Shown here piece after piece: positions 28,290 through 37,790 of a stretch of 47,879 nt of DNA. The first letter of the stretch is position 1. Every line of letters starts with the position of its first letter. The translations under genes were made by a program, and so were the position numbers. The notes below the pieces were generated by a model that was not told where the DNA came from, made no database searches, and saw only the letters and a list, made by a program, of their open reading frames with translations. The DNA is from a virus, in the IMG/VR virus record IMGVR_UViG_3300017788_000040, positions 1 to 47,879 of that record. One strand, written 5' to 3'.

Positions 28290-28840
28290 TATCCTCTCCC
28301 TGCTTCTAAAACAGCTTTTAAAATATCAAATGGTTTACTAAAAATAGTAGCGTTTGACATAGCAACTAAAGTACTATTCTGCATGAGAAGTGATGCTAAA
28401 TCACCTTCTTTGGCATAAGGGGCATCAACATTATCACCTAATAATCTAATATTTTTTGTTGCTCCTTCTTCTTGATACCCCAATCTAATATTTGGAGCTT
28501 GTATAATAACTTCTTTTGATCCTTCAATAACTATTGTTCTACCCTTAAGAGTTATGTAACCACTTTCAGCAACGTATTCTATATTTCCTTTGTGAGCAGT
28601 AAACAAACATGCTACATCGCCAGAAGAAACCTTATCTCCACATTCAAACTGAAATTTTCCATCCGTATTAAACCGAGCTAATCCACTTCCTTCATGAAAA
28701 CTTTGATTATATTTTAGACCATCAGAATTTATTGAAACTAATTGATATGCTGTTTTTCCAGCATATCCCACAACTTCATTTCCAGTTTCAACATATAATT
28801 TTGGTCCAAAGGACTCTAGATATCTTGGATACTCGCTCAT
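28289..28840 (-). CDS. Tail/baseplate structural protein
   Basis: 183 residues from the ATG at 28840, which overlaps the upstream TGA (ATGA); an in-frame extension of four residues is less likely. Beta-type, starting MSEYPRYLESFGPKLYVETG. The region IEYVAESGYITLKGRTIVIE followed by VIIQAPNIRLGY resembles the regular strands of a small beta-helix, like spike or gp5 C-terminal beta-prism strands. It lies in the hub gene cluster and could be a tip spike component. The role is inferred from position only. Confidence 0.7.
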   Translation of the reverse strand: MSEYPRYLESFGPKLYVETGNEVVGYAGKTAYQLVSINSDGLKYNQSFHEGSGLARFNTDGKFQFECGDKVSSGDVACLFTAHKGNIEYVAESGYITLKGRTIVIEGSKEVIIQAPNIRLGYQEEGATKNIRLLGDNVDAPYAKEGDLASLLMQNSTLVAMSNATIFSKPFDILKAVLEAGRG

Positions 28841-31134
28841 GGTGTAATACAATCAATTTGTTGAGCAATTTGTTGAGCAATTTCTGTTTTTTCGGCACGT
28901 GTTGGTTTTACTGTTGTCATAATTGGTCTTAATACCGCACCATATCCAGTCTCTGTCTTTATATTTAGTTTTGGTAGATCAGAATATCTAACTAGTTTTG
29001 TAACAGTAACACTAGAAACTTTACCGTTTTCTATTGTTATTTCTAAATCATCTTTTTTCGGTTCTGATTCTAATGTATCATCATCTTGATAATTTGTTCC
29101 AGAATTTTCAACTAAAACTTCTTTGATATAAACATCATCATTTTTCAAATTATCTTGAATACCGGTACGTTCAGGTAAGTTTATTGGATAATTTTCACCT
29201 TCACTATCAATTACAACAGATTTAATTTGTCCATATGTTGGAGAATTTATATTGGTATCAATAATTGCTCTTCCATAAGCTCCATATCCCTGATCACAAT
29301 TATCCTCAAAAGATACAAAAGGAGCTTCTGTATACTCTTGTCCAGGATCTACAAGATCTACACCAATAATACTCGCGGTTCTTTTGATGTCCCCACCAAT
29401 ATTTTGAGTATCAAATTCATTCATAAATTTGCCAAGAATAACTTGTCCTGCTGCACCTACACCATCACCACCGAAGAACTTCACTTTTGGTCCGCCACAT
29501 TCAAAGACATTACCAGAATTACAATTAGACCCTCCAATACCTTGATCACCAACATCACTCAATTTAGATCCAAATATATTCCATTTTCCATATTGCCTTT
29601 CAAAGTCATTAATAAGATTTTCTGTCCCTTGAGATAACGCATTTCCAGAAGAAATTTTTCCGATTAAATCATCCTGTTCATTTTCATCTTTATCTTTTAA
29701 TAAACCCTTATCAATTTTATATTTTCGACTTGGTGGACATTCCTCTTTTTCTCCACATTTAAGAAAACTCAAAATTTTCCTAATTGTTTTAACTGCTCCA
29801 ACTAAAAAGTTTTTGACATTAAAAACAACCTCTAGAATCTTTTGAATGGGTCCGAGTAATGGAGTAACAGCAGAATCAATCAAATTAATTATTTTTGTTG
29901 TTAATGCTCCAATATATTGTTGGACAGCGCAGGTAGGAACATTTAAAACATTTCTAACCATTCCCATAAGTAAATCTTCAACCACACTTGTTAATGCTTG
30001 TGTAATTTTTGATGTTAAACAAGCAAGGGCTTTGTTAAGTGCCTTTACTGGATTTAAAAGATCTTTTTCTATTCCAACAAGTTTTAACATTGCTTGACCA
30101 GGTAAAGAAATAGTATTAAAAATTCGCTGTGTTAACGAAGCAAGACCCTGACTAATCCATTTGTTTATTGCTTTTGTTAATCCAGATACCAATTTTCCAA
30201 TAAAAATACTAGCAGCATCTCCAATCAGTTTAACTGTTATCTTTAAATCCTCACCAAAATTAGCAATCGCACCACCAATTTTGGTAATTTTATCAAAAAA
30301 GTTAGTGAGATATGCTTCAAGTTTTGCGAAAAAATTATCTTTACATGGATCAGCAAGAATAATTGTTTTACCTGTTGTATCAGATAATGCTGGACAAGTA
30401 GCAGTTATTTTTCCATCCTTAATATTTTTTTGTCTTTGCTTTTCTCTTAAAGATTTTAATAATTGATCAGGTGTTTGCTTATTAAATGGTATTTGAACAG
30501 TTGAGTTAAGTTCAGCACAAAGATCTGGATAAGTATCACAAACAATTTTTTTAATTTCTGGATCCAATACACCAAGTTCCTGCATTTCCTTGGCATGATT
30601 CACAAAAGATTCTGATGGGGATTTTAAAATTTTAGGTTCTGTAGAATTTCCATCTGTACCTAAAGTTTCTCCGGGAGCTAAAAGATTAATCCAGTTGTTT
30701 AATACATCATTACTAATTCCCTGAAATCGTTCAGAAGTTTTTCCTGTAGATATATTAGTTACAATATAAGATTCCCCATTCTCATCAACATCAATTTGTA
30801 AGGTAACTCCCCCACTATTAATCTTAAAGGATTGTCCAGCAACTATTTTTTTTTCTTCTTCGTTTATATACCTAAGTTCTTCTGCTGCTGAGGGTACTAC
30901 TGGTGCTGAGGGTACTACTGGTATAGATATAGGTGCTGAAACCTGTCTTTGTATTGTTTGTGTTTCTTGTACCGCTGATACTGCCGCTGGTGTTGGTTTT
31001 TTTGCTTCTGCCAGTATAGCCTGTAAAAGCACAGGATTTTCAACTAGTTCTGCTCCACCACCACTAGTCACTTCATACCATTGATTGTTTACTCTAGTAT
31101 ATCTTATACCCTGTAATATTATCAAATCTCTCAT
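28837..31134 (-). CDS. Large tail/baseplate structural protein
   Basis: 765 residues. The N-terminus (MRDLIILQGIRYTRVNNQWY) is followed by a Pro/Val/Ala-rich linker (VSAPISIPVVPSAPVVPS). Residues 270-480 are long amphipathic helices with no charge runs (KITKIGGAIANFGEDLKI, GKLVSGLTKAINKWISQ). The C-terminal 300 residues are beta-type with repeated DxGxxYxxAP and GENYPINL units. It overlaps the gene downstream by ATGA. An AATAAATA motif and GGGAGG ribosome-binding site are upstream. I do not recognise the family; the position between the gp5-like protein and fibres suggests a hub-to-fibre connector. Confidence 0.7.
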   Translation of the reverse strand: MRDLIILQGIRYTRVNNQWYEVTSGGGAELVENPVLLQAILAEAKKPTPAAVSAVQETQTIQRQVSAPISIPVVPSAPVVPSAAEELRYINEEEKKIVAGQSFKINSGGVTLQIDVDENGESYIVTNISTGKTSERFQGISNDVLNNWINLLAPGETLGTDGNSTEPKILKSPSESFVNHAKEMQELGVLDPEIKKIVCDTYPDLCAELNSTVQIPFNKQTPDQLLKSLREKQRQKNIKDGKITATCPALSDTTGKTIILADPCKDNFFAKLEAYLTNFFDKITKIGGAIANFGEDLKITVKLIGDAASIFIGKLVSGLTKAINKWISQGLASLTQRIFNTISLPGQAMLKLVGIEKDLLNPVKALNKALACLTSKITQALTSVVEDLLMGMVRNVLNVPTCAVQQYIGALTTKIINLIDSAVTPLLGPIQKILEVVFNVKNFLVGAVKTIRKILSFLKCGEKEECPPSRKYKIDKGLLKDKDENEQDDLIGKISSGNALSQGTENLINDFERQYGKWNIFGSKLSDVGDQGIGGSNCNSGNVFECGGPKVKFFGGDGVGAAGQVILGKFMNEFDTQNIGGDIKRTASIIGVDLVDPGQEYTEAPFVSFEDNCDQGYGAYGRAIIDTNINSPTYGQIKSVVIDSEGENYPINLPERTGIQDNLKNDDVYIKEVLVENSGTNYQDDDTLESEPKKDDLEITIENGKVSSVTVTKLVRYSDLPKLNIKTETGYGAVLRPIMTTVKPTRAEKTEIAQQIAQQIDCITP

Positions 31135-31155: not shown

Positions 31156-31163
31156 TATTTATT
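31156..31163 (-). promoter_or_regulatory. T4-type late promoter motif AATAAATA
   Basis: AATAAATA on the minus strand, 21 bases before the ATG at 31134, starting at the last base of the TGA stop of the gp5-like gene. Confidence 0.6.
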
Positions 31164-32002
31164 CATCCAAACCGACCATCTCTGAATATTCCACCTGGAC
31201 GTCCGTCTTTAAATGGAGAGAATACTCGATTATTTTTACGAGCGAGATCAATTTGTTCTTGAGAAGGAACCACATTTGTTCTTACTGCTCCATTTCTTCC
31301 AGCTGGTGGAGTTGAAATTGTTTTATCCAAATCACTTAAATTTGTCACAGGATTTTCAGGAGATCCTAAAGGAGCACTTGTATCAATTTGAGGAGGTAAT
31401 GGTTTCGGCACACCACCAATATTTTGTCCAGGTACAATACCTGTCGTTTTTTTTATTTTTTCTACAACAGATTTTGTAGACCTTTTACTATCCGATTGTA
31501 TATTTTTTTCATTTCCTTTTGCAGGTTGTTGTTTCACCGTTTTTCCCGAAACAACATTATCATTTTGATTAAATTCTTGACTTCCAAGTCCACCAGGTTT
31601 TAGATCTTTAGTAAAACCACTCTTTACTTCAAATCTTCCAGATCCATACCTAATGCCAGAAGTTCTACCAAGAACATTTGTAATCATGGGAACTTGTCTT
31701 TTTTCACCATCCAAAAATTTTCCTAAAACAACATCCCCAGCTGATATTTTTGGAGTTCTTGATCTCCCACCAGCACCAGAACCATCACATGTTCCAAGAG
31801 CACATATGGCATGTGTAATTTCTTCATCCTTTACTGTAGTATCATTTGGATGAAATCCCATTATGGCAACTCTATATCTCCACCCCCATCCACTCAATCC
31901 AGTTAACTGTTCTTTCTGAGAATCAAAAGACAATACTATACCAATCCATTCATTGGTTCCTAATCCATAAAAATTAAAACTAGAAGAAGAAAGAGAGTCC
32001 AT
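31163..32002 (-). CDS. gp5-like baseplate hub protein, OB fold without lysozyme
   Basis: 279 residues. The first 120 residues match the gp5/VgrG OB-fold pattern: EWIGIVLSFD (about 17-26), GWGWRYRVAIMGFHPND, ITHAICALGT, SAGDVVLGKFLDGEKRQVPMI. The rest is low-complexity and polar (GGVPKPLPPQIDTSAPLG) and ends FRDGRFG. T4 gp5 (575 residues) has a lysozyme domain after the OB fold and a beta-helix spike; neither is present here. It lies directly after the gp27-like gene, as expected for a hub pair, sharing one base with its stop. Peptidoglycan degradation must come from another tail protein. Confidence 0.8.
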   Translation of the reverse strand: MDSLSSSSFNFYGLGTNEWIGIVLSFDSQKEQLTGLSGWGWRYRVAIMGFHPNDTTVKDEEITHAICALGTCDGSGAGGRSRTPKISAGDVVLGKFLDGEKRQVPMITNVLGRTSGIRYGSGRFEVKSGFTKDLKPGGLGSQEFNQNDNVVSGKTVKQQPAKGNEKNIQSDSKRSTKSVVEKIKKTTGIVPGQNIGGVPKPLPPQIDTSAPLGSPENPVTNLSDLDKTISTPPAGRNGAVRTNVVPSQEQIDLARKNNRVFSPFKDGRPGGIFRDGRFG

Positions 32003-33327
32003 TAATTACTTTTAGTAAAGTGTAATCCATACGAATCACGAATCAAATTCATTGAAGTGACAGCTTTATATGGTTCAAAATGATGACAAAGACTTTTTAT
32101 TATATATTCTCCACTCTGGCGTTCATCAATTCCTTGTTCTTTATTCGATGATGTGCTTTCTATGTTTAATTTTATTTTATTTCCAGCATCTAAATCTAGA
32201 TTACATGGGACAGTAACTGAATGCGACTGTGAAAATAATATGTTATATCTTGTTACTCCAGCAGCATAGTATAATTCTGGGCTATTATTAATTCCAAGAT
32301 TTGCTTCATTTGCTCCAACATCTAAAATTGCGGTTTGTACTCGATGATATTTTTTTCCTCTTTTAAAATCTGATGCTAATATTCCAGGTAATTTTGGTTT
32401 TTTGGCAAGAGAAGAAAACTTAGGATCATTGACTACAGAAATATCAATCTCAGTGAATTGTAAATTTGATGGATTGAAGAAAATATTTTTAGTAGCATAC
32501 ATTCCAGATCTAATTTGAGATAAAAGACTTTGATCTTTGTTAGTAGTTAAAGACAGAATTTTAAAATTATTAGAAGAATCTTTTAAAGAGAACGAAGATT
32601 GTACGTTACCACGATATTCATACGGAATAGGATACATCTGTTGTTTTATTAATCTATCCGCAGAAATATATTTAAATCCTGTTTTTGTTTCATAGCAAAA
32701 ATATCCTGGGTTTGAAACACTCGCAGGAACTGTTTGTTTCGCTAACATTATTAACAAATCAAATGGTCTTTTTCTCATCCCAGAAAAAGAATATGAATTT
32801 GCTGAAGGGTCTATAGAAATTTTTTTAGGATCAATCGTAAGTGTTTCTCTTAATATTTTTTGAACTGAATCTGTTATTTTTCCTTTATAATTTTTTGTAA
32901 CTCTTGTAGTTTCATTTAACCAAGCAATTCTAGAAACAAATTTTAAAATAATTGTTTCACTAGTTGAATTTTTATCTAAAATAGTCACATCCGTAACATA
33001 AAGTCTCTTAAATGAATCTGTTGAAAAATCTAATGATTTAACTTGTTGTCCAACTCCGGCTTTTATTTTTGCGATAATAATACAACCAACACTTAAAGGA
33101 AGAAAACTATATAAAGATCCTGTCCTTTGTTGAGTATCCTCAGCAGATTTAGCAGCGTCTGTTGTACTTACAATAACTACATTTCCTGTGATATATGGCG
33201 AAAGTATATTTTCATAATAATTAAAACTTATAACTCTAAATTTACCACTATAAATGTCTACAGCATTTGAACCGTCCTGCGAAATTATTTTAAATTCTTC
33301 ATACTTAACTTCTTGTGCTTCTAACAT
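32002..33327 (-). CDS. gp27-like baseplate hub subunit
   Basis: 441 residues. The start (YEEFKIISQDGSNAVDIYSG) and the pattern FNYYENILSPYITGNVVIVS are typical of the first tube-like domain of gp27/gpD-type hub proteins. SFSGMRKRPFDLLIMLAKQT matches the mid-domain where related hub proteins have a P-x-x-L-hydrophobic helix. The C-terminus has a beta domain (VPCNLDLDAGNKIKLNI, GEYIIKSLCHHFEP) that corresponds to the last tube domain. In T4, a gp27 trimer connects the tail tube to the gp5 spike. Overlaps both neighbours by one base, so expression is tightly coupled. Confidence 0.8.
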   Translation of the reverse strand: MLEAQEVKYEEFKIISQDGSNAVDIYSGKFRVISFNYYENILSPYITGNVVIVSTTDAAKSAEDTQQRTGSLYSFLPLSVGCIIIAKIKAGVGQQVKSLDFSTDSFKRLYVTDVTILDKNSTSETIILKFVSRIAWLNETTRVTKNYKGKITDSVQKILRETLTIDPKKISIDPSANSYSFSGMRKRPFDLLIMLAKQTVPASVSNPGYFCYETKTGFKYISADRLIKQQMYPIPYEYRGNVQSSFSLKDSSNNFKILSLTTNKDQSLLSQIRSGMYATKNIFFNPSNLQFTEIDISVVNDPKFSSLAKKPKLPGILASDFKRGKKYHRVQTAILDVGANEANLGINNSPELYYAAGVTRYNILFSQSHSVTVPCNLDLDAGNKIKLNIESTSSNKEQGIDERQSGEYIIKSLCHHFEPYKAVTSMNLIRDSYGLHFTKSN

Positions 33328-34991
33328 TATGGTATCCCCTGTAGTAGATTTGACTTGCCTCTATTATTCCAGTCAAAAATTGAAGACAATGGTTGTGGTT
33401 GATTAGATTGAGGAGTTCCATTTCCATATCCAGAACCACCAGGTCCTATTACAGGTTGAATAAGAATTCTCGATTCTAATTCACCAAGTGGCACTGATAT
33501 TGGACGAGCGCCATTTGATCTTTCTACTGGAGAAATTCTAGGATTAGAAGTTCCGGGTCTTTCAAGAATTTTAAGTAAATCAGAAGCACTAGAAGCAACC
33601 GGATCTTTTTGCTGAATTTGACGTTTTACTAGTTCTTTTTCATTTCTAGGACCAGAATTTAAATGTGCTAAGAAATACTTTTTACCATTTTTATCTTGAA
33701 TAACAACCACATTTCCATATCCAGCAAAACGATCATCTGTACCCATCTTAACATATCCAACATATTTCAATCCACCAGTTAATGAAATTGGTTGGTTTGG
33801 TTCTCCAGAGTAATCTTCTCCCGCATGATAACTTTGAGTAGATTCTCTCCATCCAATAGGTGATTCAAAACGTAGTCTTCTAGTCATTGATACACCACTA
33901 ACTAGAATATTATTTTTAACGTTTGCTGGTATTGCCTCTCCACCTTTTGAATAACTTTCAATATGAATATGAGGTCCAGTGCTTTGACCGGTAGATCCTA
34001 AAGTTCCTATAACCTCAGTTTTATCAACATCAATTGGAGTAGAATATGGATCAAATGGAGTTCTCTCTCCAGGGGGACCAGGGGGCAAATCGTCATTATT
34101 TGGTTTTAAAATACCATCAAATTTTTTTAGTCCTTTTAAGACTTTAACTATCTCTTCAAATTTGTTTATATTATTATCATATACTTTAATACTTTCAGAA
34201 TTTTCATTAGATGATTTTGCGAATAACTTTATAGGATTAGTTTTATCATTTCCAACAGAAGACCTTTTGGGTTGTTGATTTGCTTGAGATTGTGAATTAA
34301 CAGAACCTCCTGTTTTTCTTTTTTGTATTTTTAAATTATTACTGGAATCAGCAATAGGTTGAGAAGATACTGGAGATGATTGTAGAGGTGAAATTTCTGA
34401 AGGAGTTGTTGCTGGATACATCGATCCAGGAACTACAGGAGTAAAAGGTATATTTGGAACTGTCACCTCATCACTATTTCCCATTTCACGATCGAGATTT
34501 TTTAATTCTTTTTCAGATTGATCTATATTTTTTTTAGAACTTTCTGGATTGAAAATAGAAGAAATACTATTATAAACAGATCCTATTCCAGTTGCTATTG
34601 CCCCAAATGCAGCAATTGTACCAGTCACAACTGGTCCAACAGTTTTTAAAAATGAAGAAATATTATCAATAATTTGGGGTAGTTTTTCTATAATAAATCC
34701 AAGAAGTAAGTATCCAAAGAAATTTAAAATACGATCTTTAATACTACTTACCATTCCAGTGAGATTTTTTAAAATTTTTGTCCCGATTCCTAATTTCGAT
34801 TCAGTTTTTGTTTCTATCTTTTTTTCTTTCTCAATTCTTTTTTTCTCTTCAACCTGCTTACTAATTAATAAACTTTTTTTAGCATCAATTCTTCGAATTT
34901 TACTATTAGAATCAGTTAAAAAACTTTTAATATTAGTAACATTTAACTTTAATTTTTCTATTTGAGAAGGAGTTGTTTTTAGATCTTCCAT
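33327..34991 (-). CDS. Tail hub protein with circularly permuted M23 peptidase
   Basis: 554 residues. Residues 40-70 are a charged coiled coil; 85-140 are two hydrophobic segments (FFGYLLLGFIIEKL, VTGTIAAFGAIATGIG). A polar linker with poly-Pro (PPGPPGER) follows. Then come all motifs of a LytM/M23 zinc endopeptidase, in permuted order: VIGTLGSTGQSTGPHIHIE (327-345, with the HxH pair H341/H343), HAGED (389-393, the HxxxD ligands), GYGNVVVIQ, and FLAHLN (440-445, the active-site H443). In canonical enzymes HxxxD and HL come before HxH. The protein shares its N-terminal design with the gene upstream. It is the likely tail-tip peptidoglycan hydrolase. Confidence 0.82.
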   Translation of the reverse strand: MEDLKTTPSQIEKLKLNVTNIKSFLTDSNSKIRRIDAKKSLLISKQVEEKKRIEKEKKIETKTESKLGIGTKILKNLTGMVSSIKDRILNFFGYLLLGFIIEKLPQIIDNISSFLKTVGPVVTGTIAAFGAIATGIGSVYNSISSIFNPESSKKNIDQSEKELKNLDREMGNSDEVTVPNIPFTPVVPGSMYPATTPSEISPLQSSPVSSQPIADSSNNLKIQKRKTGGSVNSQSQANQQPKRSSVGNDKTNPIKLFAKSSNENSESIKVYDNNINKFEEIVKVLKGLKKFDGILKPNNDDLPPGPPGERTPFDPYSTPIDVDKTEVIGTLGSTGQSTGPHIHIESYSKGGEAIPANVKNNILVSGVSMTRRLRFESPIGWRESTQSYHAGEDYSGEPNQPISLTGGLKYVGYVKMGTDDRFAGYGNVVVIQDKNGKKYFLAHLNSGPRNEKELVKRQIQQKDPVASSASDLLKILERPGTSNPRISPVERSNGARPISVPLGELESRILIQPVIGPGGSGYGNGTPQSNQPQPLSSIFDWNNRGKSNLLQGIP

Positions 34992-34994
34992 TTA

Positions 34995-36899
34995 TCAACC
35001 TCCATATATTCCCAATTCCATCATCGCATACCCAATATAAAAATTAGATGGATCTTCAGCATCAACAATTGGTAATGAACTACCACCATCAGCAGATTCA
35101 TTACTCATAGTTGAAGAAACCTGTTGAGCACCAGATCCCCCCATTTGAATGGGAGGTAAAACAGATATTGTTGATGAAGACCTTGGTGATTTAGTTAAAG
35201 TTTTTGTCACCATTCTTGGTTGTCTAAGATTGACATTAATTTCACCAACAAAGTCCATTGGTTCATTAGATTTAGATAATGGTTTCATTAAATTATTAAT
35301 ATTCATTCTTGGCATTGAAGTTGGGAGTGATTTACCTCCACCAGTACCATAAATGCTTTCATACAATTCGGGATTAGTTTCTTTAAGTTTAATTTTTTTA
35401 ACAAAATCATCATAATCTTTCAAAACAGTTTCAAATTTTTCATTTGCCGATTTAAATATTTCATTATTTTGCTCCTGTTTTTTAAGAGCATCTATCATCT
35501 TTTGATAAAGTTGTCCTCCACTATAAATCATATCGTCAATAAAAGGTCCATATCTTTTACTTTCTTCTTTTGGAATAATTTTTTCACCAGGAGTTCCTAA
35601 AAGTGGAACAATATCTTTATTAACATTTGGACCAGGTATCGTCCCACCATTATTGAATTCTAATTCTGGTTGTTTCCCCTCTTCTGAAGCATCTTTTCCA
35701 GGTCCAACAATAGCATCATAAAGACTGCCACCAACAAAATCACCTAAAATTCCACCAAGAATTGTTCCAGCTGGTCCAAGCAATGTTCCAAGAGCACCAC
35801 CTAAACCAGCTCCAACTGCCTTTGCAGCAGCACGTCCTATTGGTTCACCTAAAGCAAGAGAAACAGCAAAATCAATTAAGGCACCAAAAATGGGTATTCT
35901 TTTAAATACTGGTCTAAGAAAACCCATAATACCTTTAGCACCTGGACCCATGCCAATTGCCTTAAGCATATTTCTTCCTAGTTGTCCCCCAGCAACATCA
36001 ACTCTTTGTAGTGTTTTACCAATTGGCGATTTTGTTCTTTTAACTACATCAACTCCTTCATGTATTAGTCCTCCAGAACCAGGTTTAGCTCTGGTAACTC
36101 TTTCCATTTCAACTGATATTCCTCTTCTTCCTCCTTGATTATTTCTAAAAAGTCCTCCACCTTTTTTTCCATTTTCACTTAAAAGATTGCCATCGGCAGA
36201 TTTACCTCGATTAAAACCACTAACAAATTTTCCAACAGCTTTAAGAGCACGATATAGTTTTACTATTTTACGAACAACTCTATAAACTAATACTCCACCT
36301 AAGATCATAAGCAAAGTATTTGAATGCTTCTCTAAGAAATCAAAAAATCCTTGTATTTTTTTAATATTAACTGGATTGCTTAACCATTTTACAGCCTGAT
36401 TTATTACAAAACCAGTAACCAATGATCCAAAAAACTGAATCAATCTATCGAATATATTTTTTATTGGTGAAGTAATTTTATCAACCTGCTTTCCTATTAC
36501 TTGACCAAGTTTATTTGTAGATTCAATGCCCTCTTCTGCTTTTTCTCTTTTTCTTTTATCGGAAGAAATTCTTATCTTCTTTGTGTTTTCTTCTTCTTTT
36601 GCTATTCTATATGAAAAATCTAAAGAAAGTTGCTTTTGAATTTCTACGAGAGTATTGTTAATTTCTTCTAAAGCATTAGAAACAGGTTCTTTAGGTTGGA
36701 TTGGTGAGGATAAAACCCTTCCAGCTGGTCCTATTCCTGCGTTTTTCCCTAAAGATCCAATCGGTAATTTAATTGTCGATACTCTTAATTTAGCAGTTGT
36801 TGTAGCACCACGAATTACGGCAGAAGAAATATTCTGCTTACTCAACTTAGGTTGAGATTTTAATGATGGTGCTCTATAGATTTGACTGCTAAATTCCAC
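34995..36899 (-). CDS. Probable tail tape-measure protein (gp29 position)
   Basis: 634 residues, GTG start at 36899 overlapping the upstream gene by 11 bases. A coiled-coil region (residues 75-140, EEINNTLVEIQKQLSLDF) is followed by hydrophobic segments (FFGSLVTGFVINQAVKWL at 156-173; NTLLMILGGVLVYRVVRKI at 194-212) and a Gly/Ala-rich hydrophobic region (about 325-395, AAAKAVGAGLGGALGTLLG). This composition is usual for tape-measure proteins, and T4 gp29 is of similar length (590). It follows the gp26-like/58-residue pair that looks like a tail-assembly chaperone system, the standard position for a tape measure. The downstream M23 protein has a similar N-terminal segment, so either could serve this role. 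Confidence 0.65.
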   Translation of the reverse strand: MEFSSQIYRAPSLKSQPKLSKQNISSAVIRGATTTAKLRVSTIKLPIGSLGKNAGIGPAGRVLSSPIQPKEPVSNALEEINNTLVEIQKQLSLDFSYRIAKEEENTKKIRISSDKRKREKAEEGIESTNKLGQVIGKQVDKITSPIKNIFDRLIQFFGSLVTGFVINQAVKWLSNPVNIKKIQGFFDFLEKHSNTLLMILGGVLVYRVVRKIVKLYRALKAVGKFVSGFNRGKSADGNLLSENGKKGGGLFRNNQGGRRGISVEMERVTRAKPGSGGLIHEGVDVVKRTKSPIGKTLQRVDVAGGQLGRNMLKAIGMGPGAKGIMGFLRPVFKRIPIFGALIDFAVSLALGEPIGRAAAKAVGAGLGGALGTLLGPAGTILGGILGDFVGGSLYDAIVGPGKDASEEGKQPELEFNNGGTIPGPNVNKDIVPLLGTPGEKIIPKEESKRYGPFIDDMIYSGGQLYQKMIDALKKQEQNNEIFKSANEKFETVLKDYDDFVKKIKLKETNPELYESIYGTGGGKSLPTSMPRMNINNLMKPLSKSNEPMDFVGEINVNLRQPRMVTKTLTKSPRSSSTISVLPPIQMGGSGAQQVSSTMSNESADGGSSLPIVDAEDPSNFYIGYAMMELGIYGG

Positions 36900-37067: not shown

Positions 37068-37790
37068 CTAACTGAAAAAAGATGCTAACCCTTCTAAAAC
37101 AACTTCACTTTCAACATTTGTTTCTGGATTTATAACTTTAACAGTATGAGAAAGTTTTGGCATTGTATTGAAAAATTCTTCAATTTGTTTGAACTGTTTT
37201 GTATTCATCTGCTCTACAAATTCTTGTAATTCTTTTTTAGTACAATCAGAAGAAGACCAAGATTCTTCTTCATTAAATACTTGACCGATACAAGAAACAA
37301 TTACATCTAAAGATTTATCAACTTCACTACCCGTATTATTATACTCAAAGTTGTTTTCAATAAATTCAGATAATGAAGGATATTTCATTTGAATCGATAG
37401 ACTATCATCTAATTTAATTATACTTGAATGATTTGGATTTTTTTGAACCTTTATGGATTCCAAATCAATTTCAATCTTAACTTTTGTAGTATTATCATCT
37501 GGACAAGTTATATTAACTTCTACAGTTTCACCAACAGATCTAGCACGGATATTTAAAAATAGGTATTCAATATCAAATGTAGATAATTCGTTAATTTTTA
37601 TTCCCTTTGTAAGGATACATTCTGTAATTACGGTTTTAATAGCGTTAGAAATCTGCTTCATATCTTCAGATTCAAGCGCCATGATGAGAATTTTTTCTTC
37701 TCTAACTAGAAAAGGTCTATACTTAATTTTCTTTCCAGTAGAGGGCAATTCCAACTCATATGTTGGTGCGGATATTTTTGGTAAAGGCAT
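37068..37790 (-). CDS. gp26-like baseplate hub protein / assembly chaperone
   Basis: 240 residues, MPLPKISAPTYELELPSTGK onward, matching the T4 baseplate (gp26, PF12322) family in length and pattern: KKIKYRPFLVREEKILIMA, then KTVITECI and FDIEYLFLNIRARSVGE, and a C-terminal region with ELQEFVEQMNTKQFKQIEEF. In T4, gp26 is a hub/assembly factor; relatives in other phages act as tail assembly chaperones. The position upstream of the tape-measure-like gene and the slippery site at its end support the chaperone view. An AATAAATA late motif lies 28 bases upstream. Confidence 0.85.
   Translation of the reverse strand: MPLPKISAPTYELELPSTGKKIKYRPFLVREEKILIMALESEDMKQISNAIKTVITECILTKGIKINELSTFDIEYLFLNIRARSVGETVEVNITCPDDNTTKVKIEIDLESIKVQKNPNHSSIIKLDDSLSIQMKYPSLSEFIENNFEYNNTGSEVDKSLDVIVSCIGQVFNEEESWSSSDCTKKELQEFVEQMNTKQFKQIEEFFNTMPKLSHTVKVINPETNVESEVVLEGLASFFS
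37074..37080 (-). other. Candidate -1 frameshift site TTTTTTC
   Basis: On the minus strand the gp26-like gene ends GCA TCT TTT TTC AGT TAG. The heptamer T-TTT-TTC fits X-XXY-YYZ in the zero frame. A -1 slip gives CAG TTA GCT ATG GCT and continues into the 58-residue frame without a stop, producing a fusion of about 300 residues. Confidence 0.6.

Follow-up and report, generated by a model that had tools for sequence, protein, structure and literature searches.

Here, we describe a viral protein that is very probably a tail-associated peptidoglycan endopeptidase with a truly circularly permuted M23 (LytM-like) zinc-peptidase domain, sitting in an interchangeable gene slot and probably opening the host wall. 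It is encoded by a 554-aa open reading frame (ORF) at positions 33327..34991, on the minus strand, of the window, that is, the whole 47,879-nucleotide stretch of DNA that was analysed (IMG/VR record IMGVR_UViG_3300017788_000040). Among cell-wall peptidases, the M23 family ranks with the most widespread. The window domain shares with the M23/LytM-lysostaphin enzymes (PF01551; 3SLU, 6MUK, LytM 2B0P, Zoocin A 5KVP and lysostaphin 4QP5) both halves of the domain, the five active-site positions and the flanking glycine-rich motifs, but its halves are reversed, its termini would fall within the loop that follows the AHL strand and a joiner of about 40 residues links the old termini. In a full-text search of the open-access literature, no report of a permuted M23, LytM or lysostaphin came up, in keeping with the statement in the preliminary description that no such enzyme was known. 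The only match there to a ‘circularly permuted endopeptidase’ concerned NlpC/P60 and not M23 (PMC12667903, which lists Xu et al. 2011, doi 10.1371/journal.pone.0022013, as its reference 35). The permuted NlpC/P60 endopeptidases are likewise a natural circular permutation in a peptidoglycan-peptidase superfamily, but they are cysteine peptidases with a papain-like fold, unrelated to M23.

The window protein has four histidines in total (341, 343, 389 and 443), and together with D393 these are exactly the five active-site positions of M23. All the zinc and catalytic motifs claimed in the preliminary description are present at the places it gave: HxH (H341/H343), HxxxD (H389/D393) and HL (H443). 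The canonical linear order is HxxxD, HL, HxH, whereas here HxH comes first, followed by HxxxD and HL, and the domain is therefore classed as a circularly permuted M23 variant rather than an ordinary member. With only four histidines, the protein has no canonical HxxxD upstream of residue 341 and, as had been noted before, no second HxH after residue 443; it contains one complete set of M23 elements and no leftover first N-terminal half or last C-terminal half. The C-terminal half is placed first (residues 322-350, 33942..34028, like all features below on the minus strand; it contains GSTGQSTGPHIHIE) and includes H341-I-H343 (33963..33971), which aligns to the canonical HLH. The joiner between the old C-terminus and the old N-terminus, placed from an 18-sequence alignment and a structural model, covers residues 346-387 (33831..33956), with 43 residues between E345 and H389. 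The N-terminal half comes second (residues 388-457, 33621..33830), with the predicted zinc-ligand motif H389-A-G-E-D393 (33813..33827) and, in AHL, H443 (33663..33665). By homology, H341 and H443 would be the catalytic histidines (LytM H291 and H260), and H343 (LytM H293), H389 and D393 would bind the zinc.

Profile comparisons recover both halves in swapped order. Pfam M23 matches the window protein with an E value of 8.9e-10 and 39.1 bits (cutoff 28.7), summed over two complementary stretches, profile positions 63-91 at residues 322-350 and then 2-65 at residues 388-457. The same two pieces, again swapped, were found by phmmer against the PDB in 3SLU, 6MUK and TagE. A profile of the permuted family found swapped halves in 3SLU (best, 1.4e-13) and Zoocin A, and its best one-half matches were LytM, ShyA and lysostaphin; no collinear match to any solved M23 chain was among the PDB matches listed for this profile. 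A collinear alignment to a doubled profile is the textbook signature of circular permutation and its standard test. With hhalign, we aligned the permuted family to a canonical profile built from nine ordinary M23 domains, in a single and a doubled version. The single version gave two hits in swapped order (scores 82.9 and 77.9) and the doubled version one collinear hit over 136 columns (score 157.8, E 8.8e-25), which exceeds each single-profile piece. A chance match is excluded by this difference. The reversed block order pointed out in the preliminary description is thus borne out by the swapped Pfam pieces and by the profile-profile comparison with full-length M23 that it had proposed.

Residues 309-468, modelled by AlphaFold2 with 17 relatives (18 sequences), form one compact predicted domain that includes the joiner (mean pLDDT 92, pTM 0.87), with pLDDT >90 nearly throughout and about 86-98 along the joiner. 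In the permuted chain, start and end would both fall in the loop behind the ‘AHL’ strand, with the C-terminal half (IG..G.TG.STGPHIHIE) first, the joiner next and the HxGxD...AHL half last. A Foldseek search of viral models returned four hits with E <1e-3, aligned over 152-156 columns. S-TIM5 and P60 were among them, and both proved to have the permuted order when their sequences were checked, P60 in degenerate form. Against the PDB, Foldseek returned only noise for both models and retrieved no M23 structure, which is compatible with a sequential aligner missing a permutation and is not in itself positive support. The doubled-profile test, the confident single-domain model and the conservation of the order and of the five residues across independent contigs together support the reading of the M23 domain as a true circular permutant.

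This conservation is extensive. DNA patterns for the permuted order had matches in 27 and 19 viral contigs, and further contigs came from a profile search; in all, the permuted family is represented by 94 loci on about 60 IMG/VR contigs, which stem from many samples. The permuted order and all five residues are kept in its 27 distinct cores (22 clusters at ~90% identity), and in none of them does an extra HxxxD precede the domain or an extra HxH follow it. None of the five residues varies in the 18-sequence alignment, where identity to the window protein is 33-59%, and the joiner motif IPxxV..NI.V.GkP.. is conserved within the cyanophage family. The window protein itself has a 100% identical copy in IMG/VR contig 3300013126_000379. 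Full-length tblastn of the window protein against phages gave no match at 1e-3, and phage relatives were found with domain-only and relative-based queries. Inspection of motif order in other cyanophages, another check that had been suggested at the outset, found the permuted order again in the cultured Aurunvirus cyanophages S-TIM5, S-TIM54 and S-TIM66 as well as in the viral contigs. Acinetobacter and Moraxella phage tail/tape-measure proteins also have the permuted order, with HxH changed to HxD (HLD), and P60 gp33 has lost the HxGxD histidine and carries HLD in place of HxH. Given these lost or changed ligands, activity should not be assumed for every member.

Several side observations concern these relatives. 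HxD versions of permuted M23-like domains (L052, L053 and L179, the last being P60 gp33) occur in siphophage tail/tape-measure proteins and in a T7-like cyanophage virion protein. The large virion protein of S-TIM5 and S-TIM66 has, at residues ~385-475 and directly upstream of the permuted domain, an M23-like stretch that is devoid of active-site motifs (in S-TIM5, Pfam M23 45-79 at residues 430-464); this is a possible trace of a tandem duplication from which the permutation arises. The S-TIM5 protein also contains a Phage_lysozyme2 domain. In PDB 9K2V chain E, a phage ‘Internal protein’, residues 648-731 match the N-terminal half of M23 only.

The ORF lies in a T4-like cyanophage tail module, on the minus strand with its neighbours. 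In transcription order these are a gp26-like baseplate hub protein (37068..37790; phrog_150, E 4e-79), a 634-aa tail-module protein (34995..36899), the M23 ORF, a phrog_350 (T4-GC_15) tail protein (32002..33327; PHROG E 2e-74), which matches 260 phage records, nearly all of Synechococcus or Prochlorococcus phages, and two gp5-like hub proteins of 279 and 765 aa (31163-32002 and 28837-31134). Both of the latter match phrog_1922, a single 932-aa profile that the two ORFs cover consecutively (residues 16-183 and 197-652), as a split hub gene. The ORF at 33327-34991 has no gp27 or gp5 (OB/lysozyme) homology, and the gp5/gp27 roles are assigned by profile matches to the neighbouring phrog_1922 and phrog_350 ORFs. 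The earlier label ‘tail hub protein’ was hence too specific for a gene that lies within the hub module. Its top PHROG match is phrog_7767, a metallo-endopeptidase; the remaining matches, to endolysin, tail-lysin and tape-measure families, are weak. The 634-aa protein and the M23 protein are distant paralogues in their N-terminal regions (hmmsearch E 2e-12). At residues ~331-397 the 634-aa protein also has a glycine-rich hydrophobic, possibly membrane-active segment, GAGLGGALGTLLGPAGTILGGILGDFVGG, which recurs in one long permuted-M23 protein (L034) as if the two genes were fused there.

The same gene slot, flanked by the genes for gp26 and the T4-GC_15 tail protein, holds different wall hydrolases in other cyanophages. 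Slot contents in cultured cyanophages are GH24 plus canonical M23, canonical M23, VanY or Phage_lysozyme2, and some permuted relatives additionally carry Phage_lysozyme2 or a DPBB lytic transglycosylase. M23 in normal order was found in the slot of B23, S-MbCM7, Sf-CH8, S-B05, ACG-2014f, DSL-LC02 and S-SRM01. These proteins resemble the window protein in gene position and, in Sf-CH8, ACG-2014f and S-SRM01, in a homologous N-terminal scaffold, but their M23 motifs run in the normal order and in Sf-CH8 and ACG-2014f a GH24 lysozyme domain precedes M23. The scaffold (residues 1-200, 34392..34991), with a charged coil and a hydrophobic segment, is common to other cyanophage slot proteins: the N-terminal profile of the permuted family matches Sf-CH8 (5e-20), ACG-2014f (2e-13) and S-SRM01 (4e-13) among the canonical-M23 proteins, and S-T4 (8e-24) and P-SSM2 GC14 (1e-19) among those with no recognised M23. 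S-SRM01 also shares the ‘GYTGRVSPSGVDGTHVHIQ’ loop type with the permuted family. The S-T4 slot protein has a THFHID that Pfam does not recognise as M23, and no M23-type HxH motif was found within 60-109 kb of S-PM2, a stretch that lies outside its slot region. Because it holds such varied wall hydrolases, the slot is an interchangeable tail murein-hydrolase position in the baseplate/hub module of T4-like cyanophages, and this is the main argument for an enzymatic function. Most likely, the zinc endopeptidase would cleave cross-linking peptides once the tail reaches the wall, and the host cell wall would probably be opened locally during tail penetration; we infer the geometry of the zinc site, the enzymatic activity, the presence in the virion and the use at entry.

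One alternative is that the permuted domain is M23-like in fold and catalytically dead, with a role in structure or in wall binding. Degenerate M23 domains occur widely among cell-division proteins, and the relatives in P60, Acinetobacter and Moraxella phages show that permuted domains degenerate as well. However, the five residues are invariant in the cyanophage slot family despite identities of 33-59%, and the active-site histidines are the only histidines that the window protein has, and we consider a dead domain unlikely here. The order of the blocks could also have been produced by an assembly or recombination artefact that swapped two parts of an ordinary M23 gene. Nothing was found in favour of this explanation, and it was rejected as next to impossible, given that the order is kept across about 60 contigs from many samples and in three cultured genomes, with a conserved joiner.

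Two half-domains left by a tandem duplication might instead pair between subunits, as a domain-swapped oligomer, and not within one chain. Tail proteins are frequently oligomeric, natural tandem M23 proteins exist (L127), and the M23-like stretch of S-TIM5 lies just upstream of its permuted domain. Still, AlphaFold2 confidently builds the two halves into a single compact, monomeric domain, both the length and the sequence of the joiner are conserved, and the window protein retains no remnant of a first N-terminal or a last C-terminal half, which makes pairing between subunits highly improbable. The preliminary description had itself raised half-domains from a duplicated ancestor beside a circular permutation. 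As an evolutionary route this may hold, but it is no better description of the present domain, since there is one complete set of elements and nothing extra. The preferred reading, a circularly permuted M23 domain within a single chain, matters for detection too: profile searches that depend on motif order, like sequential structure aligners, break permuted enzymes into pieces or overlook them. The window protein is an example, for which Foldseek retrieves no M23 from the PDB and Pfam reports only two fragments. Permuted and canonical M23 domains on homologous N-terminal scaffolds in the same slot also provide a natural experiment on how a permutation happens and what it changes.

The permuted order is also found in bacteria. 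A genome-wide scan with the DNA pattern gave 70 hits, most of them chance patterns in unrelated frames; two were ordinary M23-bearing loci (L124 and L127) and three were real permuted M23s, which belong to three Saccharibacteria/Patescibacteria genomes and lie behind an EnvC/PcsB-like coiled coil. Pfam finds both halves, swapped, in these three proteins, and ordinary M23s elsewhere in the same genomes. Twelve more permuted proteins turned up in a sample of 145 Patescibacteria genomes, no two of them in the same genome. No publication on permuted M23 in Saccharibacteria/Patescibacteria was found in the full-text search of the open-access literature. A tree of 106 columns groups the 22 cyanophage slot sequences in a single clade (99/98). 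The AU test rejects all permuted sequences as one clade (p 0.011) and does not reject the phage permuted sequences alone as one clade (p 0.30). Together with the different joiners, these tests suggest that the permutation arose two or more times at the same loop, with the Patescibacterial one being an event separate from that in phages; as the alignment is short and has long branches, we treat this as a lead only. More broadly, we consider it conceivable, at somewhat less than an even chance, that M23 has been permuted at the same surface loop at least twice, once among tailed phages (in tail, tape-measure and ejected proteins) and once among Patescibacteria (in EnvC-like proteins), as an unrecognised recurrent topology selected for changing the entry point of the tether with respect to the active-site groove. 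The Patescibacterial cases suggest that permutation also affects wall remodelling or attack by ultra-small bacteria. These proteins resemble the EnvC/PcsB type in having a coiled coil followed by M23 elements, but their M23 is permuted and the chain usually stops soon after its last motif, in most cases 1-4 residues past GHM/AHL. The first zinc histidine is apparently absent in 2 of the 12 further proteins.
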